Source of the DNA: Oribacterium sp.
GTDB taxonomy: Bacteria > Bacillota_A > Clostridia > Lachnospirales > Lachnospiraceae
Reading direction: 5' to 3'
Assembly (NCBI GenBank): GCA_017940955.1
Contig: JAGAXP010000059.1
Span: 1 to 14,688, forward strand
Length of the DNA: 14,688 bases
Shown: positions 233 to 9,374 of the stretch, one piece after another
Layout: every line of letters starts with the position of its first letter
Position numbering within the stretch: position 1 is the first letter of the stretch
Position numbers and translations under genes: made by a program
Notes under the pieces: model-generated
What the model saw: only the letters and a program-made list of their open reading frames with translations
Told to the model about the DNA's origin: nothing
The model's database searches: none

Positions 233-2389
233 ATGAGACGATTTATTGCGGTTCTTATTTCTGTATCAATGTTTATGTCGGTGCTTTCGGGGTGTAAGGG
301 TAAAACAGATACTACGGACACGAAGGGTACCGAAGCGGTAAGTAAAGTTGATACAGGTGTAAAAAAGAACGAAGGAGCCGGCACAACCGAAGCAACAAAA
401 GCAGCGGAGGCGGTGCAGACAGTCGAGACGGCAACATTATCACCGGAAAATACCAGTGCAACCCTGGGGGACGGAATTACAGTGGATGTGGGTGATTTTG
501 TTCTGGACGGAGAAGAGAATCTGACTGTTGAGAAGCAGGAAGTTGAGGAGAATCAGGATGAGGGATATAAAATTGAGTCCTATGATTTCTCTATAGGTGA
601 TATGAAGGAGCTTGATGATTTCATCACCATCCGAATCCCCTATGATACAAGCTTTTGTGAGGCGGGACAGGATCCTGCCAGGTGCGTCGGTGCAAAATAT
701 AAAAATGAAGAGACCGGGGAATGGGAGGATGTGCTGTTCGAGGTTGATGAAGATGCAAAGGAGCTTGTGATATACACGGACCACCTGTCTGTTTACGGTG
801 CCTTTTATGTTGAAAATGAAGGTCGTCGCAATGCCTGTATAGCGGATGTACTAGGTTATTATTCATACATGGATAAGTCACAGACCATTGACTTTGCAAA
901 GCGGATAGCAGGAGATGATCCTTCTGTGATGAGGGAGATAATGAGACAGGGAGCAGAGGCAACCGGACTCTTTTTTGACTATGCAGACCAGCTTGATAAT
1001 GCAATAAATATTGTCTGCTCTGATGATATTCCCAATTGGCTGGATACAAGTATTCCGGAAACCAACCAGACCTTGTTTTCCGCCCTGGGATATATCAACA
1101 CATGCACAAATCTTCTGAAGATAAGCTTGAAGGATACAGTGGGCGGCGGCGCGGATAAGAGAGAGGTTCTTAATCTCATAAGAGATGTTGGAAGCAAGGT
1201 GACTACCTACTGGGCGAATGCATTAACAAAGGTAGGAACAGGCGCTTTATCCATCAGCATGGGTGGAGTTCTCGTTCTGGATAAAATGCTTACGGCTTTT
1301 GCGGAAGAGGCACAGGCAACAAAGCTTGAGGATATCGCTTATGTTTATCATCACTATAATGAAGGGTATTATGGTAAAAATCATAAGCCCATGACGCCGA
1401 AGGACTGGCGTGCCAAGGTTATTCAGGTTCTGGAAAGACATCCGGATGATCCTGAGATAGCGATGGCAGCCCTGGAGGCCGGGTTTAATGAATATGCCAG
1501 TCAGTTCTTCAAATTAAGCGGTGATGAAATGTATGATGTGGCAGCGGATACTCCCAATGTTACGGTCAGGAGGATTCCGAACTTCACCGAGGCGGAAAAA
1601 CAGCAGTTGATGGATGAGTATATAGTACACCTGAAAAACACGACCATGCCGGCGGTGCTCACCAGTGTAAGAAACTACATGATCAAAAAGATGGAACAGC
1701 AGCAGCTGGAGGCGGTTGAGAAGGTAAGAGAATACTATAATACAAAGATAACCATTAATATGACTGAAGAGATCAAGGAGGGGGAAGGTTCACAGTATAA
1801 AGGCTATAAGCTGAGAATGGCTCCTTTAAGCAATAAAGCTATCGAAAAAGACTGGGCCGGAATCTGGCCGGAGGGTGGCAAGCTTCGTTCCTCGGCAACT
1901 CTTCTTGGATTTACTATCGCGGGTTATCCTCATACACTTGAGTTTTTTAAACCTGATGCCGATATGAACACGGATCAGCCGGAACTTACGGTTCCGTTTG
2001 TTATAAGTATGCCGGAGATAAACATTACCTTCGGAGGCAAGGAAGCTTTGTCTGTTGAGTCATTTATGGGTGAATGGATCAATCAGGATGGTGAGCGTAT
2101 GATACTTATTCTGAACGGAGGCAATGTTATCGAAAAAGATCCGGATCTTTCCTGGTATGCGGGAGATGTTTGTGTGACAGAATATTCTGCAGAGGTTGAT
2201 GACCAGACTCTCGTGTTTAAGGGAATCACCACCTGGGTTACCGGTCCTGAAAATCTCTATACTACTGATGAGGCACGCCGCCTTGAGCTGGATGCTTCAA
2301 GCCTCAGTGATGAGTTAACTGCATTGGCGGTGCAGGATGGAATGGTTACGGAGATGACGAACGGAACGAACCACTATACGAGAAACTGA
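233..2389 (+). CDS. Large secreted lipoprotein of unknown function
   Basis: The product has 718 residues. The first 21 form a lipoprotein signal peptide: MRRF, a hydrophobic core, then the lipobox LSGC with Cys21 as the expected lipidation and anchoring site. A Thr/Glu/Lys-rich linker of roughly 50 residues follows, typical of Gram-positive lipoproteins. Next comes an acidic beta-rich region (about 65-200) containing TIRIPYD and YTDHLSVYGAFYV, then a mostly helical middle (about 200-520) and a C-terminal region (about 620-718) starting FMGEWINQDGERM that looks like a small beta-barrel or lipocalin-like fold. The ribosome binding site AAAGGAGG lies 7-8 bases before the ATG and fixes the start. 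No catalytic motif is visible. Surface location is well supported; function is unknown. Confidence 0.85.
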   Translation: MRRFIAVLISVSMFMSVLSGCKGKTDTTDTKGTEAVSKVDTGVKKNEGAGTTEATKAAEAVQTVETATLSPENTSATLGDGITVDVGDFVLDGEENLTVEKQEVEENQDEGYKIESYDFSIGDMKELDDFITIRIPYDTSFCEAGQDPARCVGAKYKNEETGEWEDVLFEVDEDAKELVIYTDHLSVYGAFYVENEGRRNACIADVLGYYSYMDKSQTIDFAKRIAGDDPSVMREIMRQGAEATGLFFDYADQLDNAINIVCSDDIPNWLDTSIPETNQTLFSALGYINTCTNLLKISLKDTVGGGADKREVLNLIRDVGSKVTTYWANALTKVGTGALSISMGGVLVLDKMLTAFAEEAQATKLEDIAYVYHHYNEGYYGKNHKPMTPKDWRAKVIQVLERHPDDPEIAMAALEAGFNEYASQFFKLSGDEMYDVAADTPNVTVRRIPNFTEAEKQQLMDEYIVHLKNTTMPAVLTSVRNYMIKKMEQQQLEAVEKVREYYNTKITINMTEEIKEGEGSQYKGYKLRMAPLSNKAIEKDWAGIWPEGGKLRSSATLLGFTIAGYPHTLEFFKPDADMNTDQPELTVPFVISMPEINITFGGKEALSVESFMGEWINQDGERMILILNGGNVIEKDPDLSWYAGDVCVTEYSAEVDDQTLVFKGITTWVTGPENLYTTDEARRLELDASSLSDELTALAVQDGMVTEMTNGTNHYTRN

Positions 2390-6075: not shown

Positions 6076-6666
6076 GTGAAACAATATGAGGTTAAGGGCA
6101 ACACAGTACGCTCTTTTGAAGTAGAAGATCGTGAAGCTTCAAAGAGTACTGTAGTTATCCAGCAGAGGGGAAGAAGAAACCAGCTTCATCTGTATCGTAC
6201 GGAAAACGGTCAGATAAAGATGGAATATGACATTGACAAGAGCATAATCAAACCCGCATTGAGATGCATTCCGGATGCTATCATTGACAGGATTTGTTAC
6301 GCAGCGCTCATCATTTCACTTTTGTTTATTTTTGGCACCTGCTATCAATGCGTAGAGGTGGATACATCAGTTGCCACAAGACTGGAGAGCATTGATCGTA
6401 AGCGTAATGAATTAAACGAACTGAAATTGGCGAATGAAGCAGTTAAGTCAGCGATTGACAGTGCTGTTAATCCGGATCTTATCTATCGTGAGGCTACAGA
6501 GGTTTACGGAATGGTTCTTCCGACGGATTCTGAGATTATTACTTTTGAAAAGGAAAGCAGTAATAAGGGATACGTAAGAACCTATGATACTATTCCCGCA
6601 GGTTACGAGAAGATCGAAAGTCCGGTAATTGTTCTGGCTAATGAACTGGCAAAGCTGATTGGATGA
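6076..6666 (+). CDS. FtsL/DivIC-like bitopic membrane protein
   Basis: The product has 196 residues, starting at GTG with AAGGGGAG 7 bases upstream. A basic/acidic cytoplasmic part (about 1-70) precedes one membrane segment (about 74-92, CYAALIISLLFIFGTCYQC). A short coiled coil follows (about 97-128, rich in Leu, Glu, Lys and Asn), then NPDLIYREATEVYGMVLPT (132-150), which matches the pattern after the coil in FtsL and DivIC-type septum proteins (a helix ending in GM, then a beta strand). The long cytoplasmic N-terminus and the tail after residue 158 are larger than in minimal FtsL. Such proteins bridge the FtsQ and FtsW/FtsI complexes in the division septum. No mraW or pbp gene is adjacent, which leaves the assignment as family-level. 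Confidence 0.6.
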   Translation: MKQYEVKGNTVRSFEVEDREASKSTVVIQQRGRRNQLHLYRTENGQIKMEYDIDKSIIKPALRCIPDAIIDRICYAALIISLLFIFGTCYQCVEVDTSVATRLESIDRKRNELNELKLANEAVKSAIDSAVNPDLIYREATEVYGMVLPTDSEIITFEKESSNKGYVRTYDTIPAGYEKIESPVIVLANELAKLIG

Positions 6667-6688
6667 TAAAAGGATTTGTGAAAACCAT

Positions 6689-6733
6689 AAGCACATTGGG
6701 GAGGATGGAACTATCCGAACCGATGTGCTTTTT
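6689..6733 (+). terminator. Intrinsic terminator of the FtsL-like gene
   Basis: AAGCACAT (6689-6696) pairs with ATGTGCTT (6723-6730), with an inner GGAT/ATCC pair near the tip, followed by a short T run through 6733. It starts 22 bases after the stop codon and separates this gene from the RNA transcription unit downstream. Confidence 0.7.
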
Positions 6734-6771
6734 GGTTGCTGAAAATAAAAATAATTTCCATAAAATAAAAC

Positions 6772-6800
6772 TTTACAAAATACGTTTTCGGTGTTAAAGT
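6772..6800 (+). promoter_or_regulatory. Promoter of the non-coding RNA unit
   Basis: TTTACA (6772-6777, five of six consensus bases) and TAAAGT (6795-6800, four of six) are separated by exactly 17 bases. TG one base before the -10 gives an extended -10 element. The predicted start is near 6807. No ribosome binding site with a long reading frame follows, so the promoter appears dedicated to the RNA. Confidence 0.6.
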
Positions 6801-6806
6801 AAGGAC

Positions 6807-7496
6807 AACAGAAAAAGAAAAGTCAACAGAAAAGTTCACCTGACGAGAAAGGGTGAAGGGCCGGTTGGCAAAAGTGCAGGGGATGAACCTGCGAAACTAA
6901 ACTAAAGAAAGCAAGAGGTGCAAGGACATGACACCAGATCAGTCAGTCACTAGTATCCTCTGGACCGCTTAAAAAGAAGAAAAACGTGAGAAGATCTCCG
7001 GACCGTACATCCGGGAGATGGTTCAAACCAATAGAGAAATGAATTTTCGGATTATTTCTTAATTAAAGTCCAGACGATATTATTGCAAAGGAAGATCGAC
7101 ATAAGAATATACAGGAAGCTGTAAAGAAAGATTCTTGTAGAGAAATAAAGTTGAGTGGTTAATTAGAGGTCTTTAAAGGGAGACCGGATAAATAAAGATC
7201 CGGAAAATCTGATAAGAAGAATACTTAGAAGGATTCGAAGGATAAATTCAAGTAATAAAAACAGTCGATCTGATAATTGAATATAGAGTCAAAACTGAAT
7301 ATTGAAATAATCTATTTATAGATGATATCCATAAGATAAAAAATTACTATCGAAAAGATATTTATAGAATTTAAATAGAAATCTAAGAAACGAGGTACAA
7401 ACCGAAGTACAATTAAGTAAGGGGACGTAATACCGAGTCTCAGGGTCAAGTTAATAATATAAATTTAAAAGCTGTCGCGACGCGGCAGCTTTTTTT
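6807..7496 (+). ncRNA. Candidate large structured non-coding RNA (about 690 nt)
   Basis: The stretch lies between a promoter (6772-6800) and a strong intrinsic terminator (7468-7496). Neither strand holds a reading frame of useful length, and composition is purine- and A-rich, unlike neighbouring genes. Many local hairpins are visible: TTCACC/GGTGAA (6835-6840, 6852-6857), GCAGG/CCTGC (6876-6880, 6888-6892), an outer AAGC/GCTT (6909-6912, 6967-6970) enclosing AGAGG/CCTCT (6914-6918, 6957-6961), ATCTCCGGA with TCCGGGAGAT (6994-7002, 7010-7019, one bulge), GGTCT/AGACC (7168-7172, 7181-7185) and GGAT/ATCC (7186-7189, 7198-7201). Unpaired A-rich linkers separate them. Size and style recall the large ornate bacterial RNAs (ROOL, GOLLD, OLE), but I recognise no diagnostic motif. 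It does not look like RNase P RNA, tmRNA, SRP or 6S RNA. The alternative is a long untranslated leader of the chemotaxis gene, which the terminator argues against. Confidence 0.65.
7468..7496 (+). terminator. Intrinsic terminator of the non-coding RNA
   Basis: AAAGCTGTCG (7468-7477) pairs with CGGCAGCTTT (7483-7492), with one G-U pair and a 5-nt loop, and a run of seven T residues spans 7490-7496. It is one of the strongest terminators in the window, about 190 bases before the chemotaxis gene. Confidence 0.88.
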
Positions 7497-7585
7497 ATAG
7501 GATTTTTAAGGTTATGCAGGGGTCTTCGGCACATAGATTACCGAAATATTATTATCCTGAAGTACAAATTATCTTAGATACAGAT

Positions 7586-7612
7586 TATAGTTTTGCATAT
7601 ATATGTCGATAG
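7586..7612 (+). promoter_or_regulatory. Candidate sigma-28 (SigD/FliA) promoter for the chemoreceptor
   Basis: TATA (7586-7589), a 15-base spacer and GTCGATAG (7605-7612) resemble the motility consensus TAAA-N15-GCCGATAT at three of four and six of eight positions. It is placed 74 bases before the chemoreceptor start, and motility sigma factors commonly drive such genes. The match is imperfect. Confidence 0.35.
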
Positions 7613-7685
7613 AGACACTTAAGTAAGTGATTAGCCTGGCAATATATCAACAAAACACAAGGATGCGGAAACAGAAGGAGTCAAT

Positions 7686-9374
7686 ATGCTGAAAACATTT
7701 AATGACCTTAGAATCAAGGCAAAATTCAGAGTAGTTCAGATCGTAATCATCGCTATATTTGTTTTTTCGCTTGTCGTAGCATTCAATGCTTTTTTTCAGA
7801 TGAGCAGTACTGCAACTATGATAACTACGGTAAATATACCTAATCTTATGGATGAGAATCTGGCGAGAAAAGATATTCAGGCGCTTCAAAAGAGGATGCT
7901 CATCGCCATCATTAATCCCAAAATGGATAATGTTAAGACTCAGAAGGAGTGGCTGGATGACAGATTCATAGTTATGCAGGGGTATGTAGATAACCTGAAA
8001 AGAAACGTCACTGATCAGTCTCTCGTGACTAATCTGGATCAGGATCTCAAGGGGGTCGTGGATGGTGCCAATGAGATTTTTGCATATCTGGAGGTTGGAA
8101 AGCTGAAGGAGGCAAAGGATTATTTCTTAAACGGTTACACGGACATAACCTGCGAAAAGCTTGCTAAGGATCTGGAACACATAGGGGATTATGCTGAGGA
8201 CGTGGCAGACATGAATTCCAGGAGGATCGAGACGCTGAAGTTTACTTCCACCATTGTGCTCGTAGTTGTTTTAGCTATTGCGATCGCTCTCATATTGACC
8301 ATATTCCAGTATCTGTCTTCCTATATGACAAAAGGAATCCATGAGATAAGCTCGGGACTTTTGACCATGGCAGACGGAGAATTTTCTTATCGCATATCTG
8401 ACGAAAGGTTTGGAAAGGATGATCTGGGTGAAATGGTTAAGGAATATAATTCCATGGCGGAAGACACAGATGCGGTAATTCTGGACATTTGCAGGGTTCT
8501 GGAGGAGATGGGAAAAGGCAATTTTGCTTCAAAGCCCACTGTTCCCGAAAAATATAAGGGTGAGTATGGGAAGATCATTGAAGCCTTTGAAAGCATCCAT
8601 GACAACCTGAAGGAAATATTCAGCAAGATGTCTACCGTTGCATCCGAGGTGGAATCAAGATCTGCCCAGATTGCGAACGGCTCCATGTCCCTGGCCCAGG
8701 GAGCTACCGAGCAGGCTTCAACTATTCAGGAGCTTTCAGACAAGATGAGGGCCTTTGATGAGAATATCGCAAAGAGCGCTGCCAATGCCATTGAAGCTGA
8801 GGAATCCTCCATCACTGTTTCTCAGAAGATCAATAATGAAAATCAGCTGATGCAGGAGATGCTCAAGGCCATGAATGAAATTGAAGGCAATGCTCAAAAG
8901 ATCAATGAGATCAACAAGGCTATCGATGACATAGCATTCCAGACAAATCTCCTGTCTCTAAATGCTTCTGTTGAGGCAGCAAGGGCAGGAAGCGCAGGAA
9001 AAGGTTTTGCAGTCGTTGCTGGTGAAGTGAGGAATCTCGCAGGCAAATCCCAGGATGCCGCCAATGAAACCTCGAAGCTCATTCAGGGAACTATCCTTTC
9101 CGTAAGAAACGGTGCGAAGATAGTGTCAGAGGCTGCACAGGCATTGCAGGATGTTATAGAAAATGCCAATAAGAGTCAGGAAATCGCTAAAGCTATTTCC
9201 CGTGAAATGCAGACAGAGGCAGAGGCTGTGAAAACCGTGTCAACAGGTCTTGAACAGATTTCCGAGGTTGTACAGCAAAATTCCGCTACATCCGAGGAAA
9301 GCAGTGCTTCCAGTCAGGAATTGAATGGTCAGGCAGCGGCCCTGAGAAAGATGGTCAGCAGTATATCATATTGA
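7686..9374 (+). CDS. Methyl-accepting chemotaxis protein
   Basis: A 562-residue transmembrane chemoreceptor. The first membrane segment is about 18-40; an extracellular helical ligand-binding region (about 41-188, four-helix-bundle type) follows; the second membrane segment is about 189-211. A HAMP domain (about 212-265) and a second HAMP-like segment around EEMGKGNF lead to the cytoplasmic signalling domain. Its hairpin tip is clear from residue 413: IDDIAFQTNLLSLNASVEAA, then RAG and KGFAVVAGEVRNLAGKS, the region that contacts CheA and CheW. No C-terminal CheR-binding pentapeptide is present (it ends SSISY). The ribosome binding site is AGAAGGAG. It stands alone, without che genes nearby. 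The ligand cannot be inferred. Confidence 0.95.
   Translation: MLKTFNDLRIKAKFRVVQIVIIAIFVFSLVVAFNAFFQMSSTATMITTVNIPNLMDENLARKDIQALQKRMLIAIINPKMDNVKTQKEWLDDRFIVMQGYVDNLKRNVTDQSLVTNLDQDLKGVVDGANEIFAYLEVGKLKEAKDYFLNGYTDITCEKLAKDLEHIGDYAEDVADMNSRRIETLKFTSTIVLVVVLAIAIALILTIFQYLSSYMTKGIHEISSGLLTMADGEFSYRISDERFGKDDLGEMVKEYNSMAEDTDAVILDICRVLEEMGKGNFASKPTVPEKYKGEYGKIIEAFESIHDNLKEIFSKMSTVASEVESRSAQIANGSMSLAQGATEQASTIQELSDKMRAFDENIAKSAANAIEAEESSITVSQKINNENQLMQEMLKAMNEIEGNAQKINEINKAIDDIAFQTNLLSLNASVEAARAGSAGKGFAVVAGEVRNLAGKSQDAANETSKLIQGTILSVRNGAKIVSEAAQALQDVIENANKSQEIAKAISREMQTEAEAVKTVSTGLEQISEVVQQNSATSEESSASSQELNGQAAALRKMVSSISY

Follow-up and report, generated by a model that had tools for sequence, protein, structure and literature searches.

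Genomic locus and boundaries of the RNA gene

The DNA analysed here, referred to as the window, is a stretch of 14,688 nucleotides from Oribacterium sp. (Lachnospiraceae; contig JAGAXP010000059.1). It carries, between an FtsL-like gene without a Pfam match and a gene assigned by Pfam to the chemoreceptors (MCP), a region delimited by a promoter and an intrinsic terminator, from which the ends of an RNA gene were deduced (Table 1). A MatE gene (Pfam) also belongs to the neighbourhood, and no tRNA is present in the window. Elsewhere in the window, an ORF of 718 aa (233-2389, plus strand) begins like a lipoprotein and did not match any Pfam family.

Both the promoter, with its 17-base spacing and extended -10 motif, and the terminator with seven T residues had been part of the original prediction, and both are borne out. 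Similar promoters were read by eye 5' of other copies of the RNA (L034 has no clear -35 box), and a terminator is found in 26 of 27 copies, L047 being the one for which none was entered. As bare patterns, the two signals are within chance, as the seven promoter-like sites compare with 5.2 and the single terminator-like site with 0.9 in shuffled sequences. Hence, they are credible because they are conserved across copies and not because the patterns are rare.

Table 1. Features of the RNA gene and its upstream region, with positions in the window.
Feature	Position	Strand	Basis
A/T-rich UP-like element	6742..6759	+	alignment columns before -35 conserved, others similar by eye; putative function
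Promoter TTTACA-17-TAAAGT, extended -10 (TG before -10)	6772..6800	+	pattern; like sites 5' of other copies by eye
RNA gene	6807..7496	+	start deduced from promoter, end from terminator
P1	6822..6869 (strands 6822-6827, 6864-6869)	+	two-sided changes in 6/6 pairs, pairing in 87.5% of cells, structure-fitted alignment
P2 hairpin, near-invariant loop UGACGAGAAAG (6841-6851)	6834..6857	+	6/7 pairs with two-sided changes
P3 hairpin	6874..6892	+	5/6 pairs with two-sided changes; one pair rank 3 in structure-blind test, E 0.77
Shine-Dalgarno AGAGGUGC	6914..6921	+	pairs with 6953-6961 in one fold; helix 4 of structure-fitted alignment
Putative short ORF MTPDQSVTSILWTA, 14 codons + stop, ATG start	6928..6972	+	pN/pS 6.4, nine window-type copies
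Segment X, common to two competing helices	6946..6966	+	swap test, predicted pairing
Local hairpin GAUCUCCGG..CCGGGAGAUGG	6993..7021	+	predicted fold
Segment A', partner of X	7067..7086	+	X:A' in window -19.8 kcal/mol, z -2.2
3' element GAGGUACAAACCGAAGUAC	7392..7410	+	conserved among copies; resembles start-site element by eye
Intrinsic terminator, seven T	7468..7496	+	pattern

Inside the gene, the plus strand has no ORF of at least 40 aa; on the minus strand, an ORF of 45 aa lies inside the gene and one of 42 aa spans its start. To this extent the earlier claim that the region lacks a useful reading frame stands, but it overlooked a conserved Shine-Dalgarno sequence, start codon and short ORF (see below). 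The predicted fold energy of the gene is below that of all shuffled sequences (z -5.55, 0/20 shuffles as low), also upon removal of the terminator (z -3.90, 0/60 shuffles as low). Four relatives gave z values of -4.09 (0/60 shuffles), -3.36 (0), -1.94 (4) and -1.92 (1), and the fold signal is therefore weaker in two short copies.

Searches with the covariance models of Rfam 15 returned no match in the window at gathering thresholds. When positions 6600-7700 were searched at E values up to 10, eight sub-threshold matches were obtained, the best of which, GibS (E 0.36), falls on the terminator region. Accordingly, the RNA falls into the size class of ROOL, GOLLD and OLE, as proposed originally, but the likeness goes no further: neither these families nor raiA nor any other Rfam 15 family matched over threshold. 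Housekeeping RNAs sit at other places in the genomes inspected. That is, bacterial type A RNase P RNA was located elsewhere in 5/5 genomes (four over cut-off), tmRNA in 6/6 (over cut-off), and 6S RNA in 5/6 at E up to 1, with 2/6 over cut-off and none in genome G007. In agreement with the original view that the gene lies outside tRNA and phage contexts, none of 88 pattern matches in viral contigs has the loop of the RNA, and two have a promoter-like site upstream. No mention of the RNA was found in the literature searched, which included passages of PMC11109978 and PMC8040213. We conclude that the window contains a real gene for a large structured RNA whose family was not found in Rfam 15.

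Copies in Oribacterium and their genomic settings

A DNA search of 61 relatives yielded matches in 13, comprising eight long ones (L001-L008), two diverged members of the Oribacterium RNA (L009 and L010) and three that are unlike members by eye (L011-L013). A model built from the 5' 148 nt of the RNA (R1) matched in all 17 Oribacterium genomes searched, at 26 places, with two copies in nine genomes; these places and the window constitute the 27 copies considered here. Of 40 stretches retrieved in another search, ten Oribacterium-like ones were counted as members and most others were set aside by organism name. L051 reads like coding DNA and, like L065 and L074, has no R1 match. Rfam searches at E up to 1 of ten loci with other copies revealed only a SAM riboswitch (L010, 1944-2048, plus strand; 65.5 bits, above gathering), which is located near a pepT-type copy and upstream of a gene that we take to be metK-like.

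The copies occur in two settings. In the window-type setting, the RNA gene lies 3' of the FtsL-like gene in 8/8 relatives and is followed by a convergent MATE gene in 7/8 and by an MCP gene in 1/8. In the other setting, the RNA is convergent to a presumed pepT-like gene (7/8 loci read), and a presumed metA-like gene is likewise found in 7/8, both names coming from our reading of the sequences and not from Pfam. Of the two settings, the pepT one is presumably the more ancient. In L004-L008, the DNA of the RNA gene is 77-79% identical and the adjoining FtsL-like protein 53-58%, a comparison that is only indicative because DNA is set against protein. Two copies are peculiar in their architecture. 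On the reverse strand of L009, the 3' element GAGGUACAAACC..GU occurs at two places and the region was matched twice by the DNA search, which suggests a tandem duplication within the RNA gene, whereas L039 has an insertion of ~100 bases in the P3 region with the flanking core kept.

Conserved helices and covariation

To describe the common fold, 22 of the 27 copies were aligned by structure, leaving out the near-duplicates L001, L002, L006 and L045 as well as L039 with its large insertion. Two-sided changes were observed in 27/31 pairs, and 92.0% of cells pair in this alignment as compared to 35.6-56.1% in slid versions. A structure-blind test used an alignment made without structure and a null simulated on a tree. 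Here, the three highest-ranking pairs all belong to the predicted helices P2 and P3, ranks 1 and 2 being P2 pairs with E values of 0.010 and 0.18; only the first of them is significant at E 0.05. None of the pairs at ranks 4-6 had been predicted, and the pairs of P1 are not among the top pairs of this test. The near-invariant loop of P2 suggests a binding site.

A putative start site with two competing helices

All 27 copies contain a Shine-Dalgarno sequence, a start codon and an ORF of 12-19 codons. In L047, ATA occupies the usual start position and an in-frame ATG is present one codon upstream. Segment X, in the distal part of the ORF, is common to two competing helices: it can pair either with the Shine-Dalgarno sequence or with the downstream segment A', which starts 104-193 nt 3' of the start codon. 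Both pairings were assessed in 14 representatives by an alignment-free swap test, in which the energy obtained with the own partner is compared with that after swapping partners among copies (2000 swaps). For X:A', the own partners gave -26.21 vs -15.64 kcal/mol for swapped ones, a value reached in 0/2000 swaps, and the own partner was best in 11/14. Without the window-type copies, the result was much the same (-26.70 vs -15.69), and z is -2 or lower in 24/27 copies. For Shine-Dalgarno:X, the corresponding energies were -8.16 vs -7.00 kcal/mol, reached by 1-2 of 2000 swaps, with the own partner best in 4/14 only. Thus, covariation of X:A' is strongly supported and that of Shine-Dalgarno:X less so; the gene, its conservation and the covariation of P2 and X:A' are established by these data, Shine-Dalgarno:X more weakly. 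In the window, the two pairings exclude each other because both use 6953-6961. The pairing of X with a strand near 7150 is there slightly more favourable (-20.9 kcal/mol) than that with A' (-19.8).

Predicted ensembles back a refolding gate only in part. In transcripts ending before A', the Shine-Dalgarno sequence is predicted on X at 0.66 or higher in 8/14 representatives, and a closed state is not clear in the other 6/14 truncated RNAs. At full length, X:A' is predicted at 0.44 or higher in 10/14, but the Shine-Dalgarno sequence is unpaired at 0.5 or higher in only 3/14, and in L036 it is predicted to be more open before A' has been made than after. In the two window-type RNAs among the 14, it would remain on X at full length (0.82 and 0.75), X:A' in the window reaching just 0.09 as compared to 0.82 for Shine-Dalgarno on X. 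The case for competing helices is stronger than that for a real unmasking of the start site, and it is stronger in the pepT type than in the window type.

At the level of the peptide, no purifying selection was seen. The pN/pS ratios are 6.44 for nine window-type copies, 0.84 for 16 others excluding L023 and L038, and 1.27 for 16 loci of a possibly related RNA described below. In none of these three sets does frame 0 give the lowest value among the three frames; this amino-acid test is confounded, however, because the same codons pair as RNA. Three peptides tried against NCBIfam gave no match. The ORFs of L023 and L038 open with MD, as in the possibly related RNA. Viewed together with the open frame of that RNA (see below), these ratios suggest that the amino acids count for less than the frame; this would fit translation as a step within the mechanism.

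A possibly related RNA in other Lachnospiraceae genera

Searching with the loop motif and its flanking stem uncovered free-standing RNA genes in further genera. A pattern for the start site matched 18/397 genomes, as compared to zero for the reversed control. Such RNA genes account for 16 of the 18, the other two (L140 and L149) being chance coding matches. A model of the core of this possibly related RNA (R3), applied at E 0.01 per genome, matched in 50/397 genomes of the family and 44/334 sampled genera, a count from which strict filters lose some members and in which the weakest matches may be chance. Of these loci, 16 + 14 were read, and a promoter is present in all of the 14 further, more diverged ones. 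When three loci were searched with Rfam, four sub-threshold matches were found, and 20 loci yielded a single sub-threshold match, mir-6301 (E 0.0032, 31.7 of 70 bits).

How this RNA relates to the Oribacterium RNA was addressed from several sides. Among 22 sources including the window and 17 Oribacterium loci, R3 matched only L130 (E 0.012), and it gave no match in the Oribacterium genomes G001 and G009. The loop GANGAGAAAG is found upstream in 14/16 loci that had been retrieved by the start-site pattern alone but, among the 14 diverged loci, within the transcript only in L270, L271 and partly L279. R2 had a best match with E of 0.01 or lower in 17/20 outside loci, largely via the hairpin, vs 3/20 in a control that is not clean, as two of its matches, L117 and L122, coincide with L141 and L147 (the third, L110, has E 0.0011). 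The two RNAs are possibly akin, judging from the hairpin loop, the start-site element and the like arrangement. The peptides encoded in Oribacterium are unlike those of the possibly related RNA.

The latter contains an ORF of 25-36 codons with a common MD..QYVSG core. In 31 loci (16 + 14 + L130), 25 codons are open in frame 0 in 31/31 cases as compared to 4/31 and 0/31 for the other frames; start codons are TTG (18, of which 16 were fixed by the search pattern), ATG (12) and CTG (1). Length changes before the QY codons preserve the frame. Eight of them were counted on a tree, one being artefactual, since a start-to-QY distance of 19 derives from an earlier CAATAT in L139. In 14 of the 16 loci, analysed without L137 and L146, the QYV codons pair with a downstream strand and covary (0/2000 swaps), and two further pairings are weaker (0.0125 and 0.023). 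A pairing of a 3' CCUCC with the Shine-Dalgarno sequence was rejected in the same 14 loci, its covariation being unsupported (fraction 0.89). In this RNA, conservation seems to extend to both an open frame and an RNA structure, apparently with no selection on the peptide, and such a combination is in itself unusual.

Some loci deviate from this arrangement. The 5' hairpin is absent from L137 and L150, where the promoter directly precedes the start site. Apparent minimal forms, consisting of a stem-loop with the same loop, a Shine-Dalgarno sequence, the ORF MIEPVQQ and a terminator, were seen in L113 (reverse strand) and L088, L113 having two of them 848 bases apart. The motif CTGACGAGAAAGG alone occurs at 51 places in 299 genomes, with no enrichment apparent by inspection over its reversed control. 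L022 and, from another search, L090, L093, L101 and L102 were judged chance matches by eye; from the latter search, L092 and L094-L100 were left unread, L092 and L095 overlapping loci found again with CTGACGAGAAAGG.

Discussion

Only a small number of large structured RNAs are known from bacteria, and their functions are mostly obscure. The RNA described here occurs in every Oribacterium genome searched, twice in nine of the 17, with a possibly related RNA in 44/334 of the genera sampled, and competing, covarying helices at a start site represent a directly testable mechanism. The original prediction of a large new non-coding RNA holds in that the gene is dedicated, structured, conserved in homologues, covarying and without a match in Rfam; that the RNA is simply non-coding has become doubtful.

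We tentatively favour, while granting that other readings together carry more weight, a free-standing RNA in which refolding gates translation of the short ORF. Transcribed from its own promoter to its own terminator, the structured RNA would hold the start site of the ORF. During transcription, the Shine-Dalgarno sequence would pair first with X, until A' emerges, captures X in a long helix and thereby may free the Shine-Dalgarno sequence. Provided that the ORF is translated in Oribacterium, the RNA would then be a switch that refolds in concert with the ribosome, and it probably acts in trans because the neighbouring genes differ between the two settings. More broadly, such stand-alone RNAs of Lachnospiraceae could form a superfamily missing from the catalogues. 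In its members, a start site and short ORF would be contained within a large fold, translation and refolding would regulate one another, and the RNA rather than the peptide would be the main product, making it a ribosome-coupled trans-acting switch. This broader notion is somewhat doubtful.

A serious competitor, plausible albeit short of probable, is a purely structural large RNA, for instance a protein-binding or multimeric scaffold, in which the start-like element is an untranslated motif. The pN/pS ratios in all three sets fit such an RNA, the start element is embedded in helices with two-sided changes, and the P2 loop may be a binding site. Against it speak a frame that is open over 25 codons in all 31 possibly related loci and survives length changes before the QY codons, and the in-frame ATG next to the ATA of L047. 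The same open frame and the shared MD..QYVSG core could point to an mRNA that encodes a small protein between long untranslated regions of regulatory function, with the peptide as the product. We consider this unlikely, as amino-acid-level selection was not seen, the three peptides tried had no NCBIfam match, the ORF makes up only a minor part of the conserved length and the Oribacterium peptides differ from the others. Finally, the MCP gene on the same strand 3' of the RNA in the window could suggest a cis-acting leader of the downstream gene. This is very improbable and already disfavoured: the terminator separates RNA and MCP, nearly all window-type relatives have a convergent MATE gene at this place, and the pepT-like gene is convergent to the other type in 7/8 loci read.

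Several known systems offer parallels. With ROOL, GOLLD and OLE, the RNA shares the size class and complex folding (PMC12286853); it differs by the missing covariance-model match, the absence of tRNAs from the window and the presence of a start site. The raiA motif RNA (ModT) is likewise a widely conserved structured RNA of Bacillota (PMC11706538). The RNA reported here differs in having no Rfam match. RNAIII of Staphylococcus aureus (cf. PMC11237564) has a dual function, being a regulator in which a short ORF is present as well. It resembles the present RNA in size and in having a short ORF, putative in our case. The RNA reported here differs in that the Rfam scans returned no match to any family, and a dual-function working mode is no more than a possibility, with the frame kept in the possibly related RNA but no selection seen on the amino acids. 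In hok-type mRNAs, the start site is controlled by a fold-back of the RNA. Masking of a start site by its own RNA is thus common to the hok type, to the 5'-3' pairing of icaR (PMC3868564), and to the switch proposed here. The difference is that the masking segment of the Oribacterium RNA sits inside the ORF.
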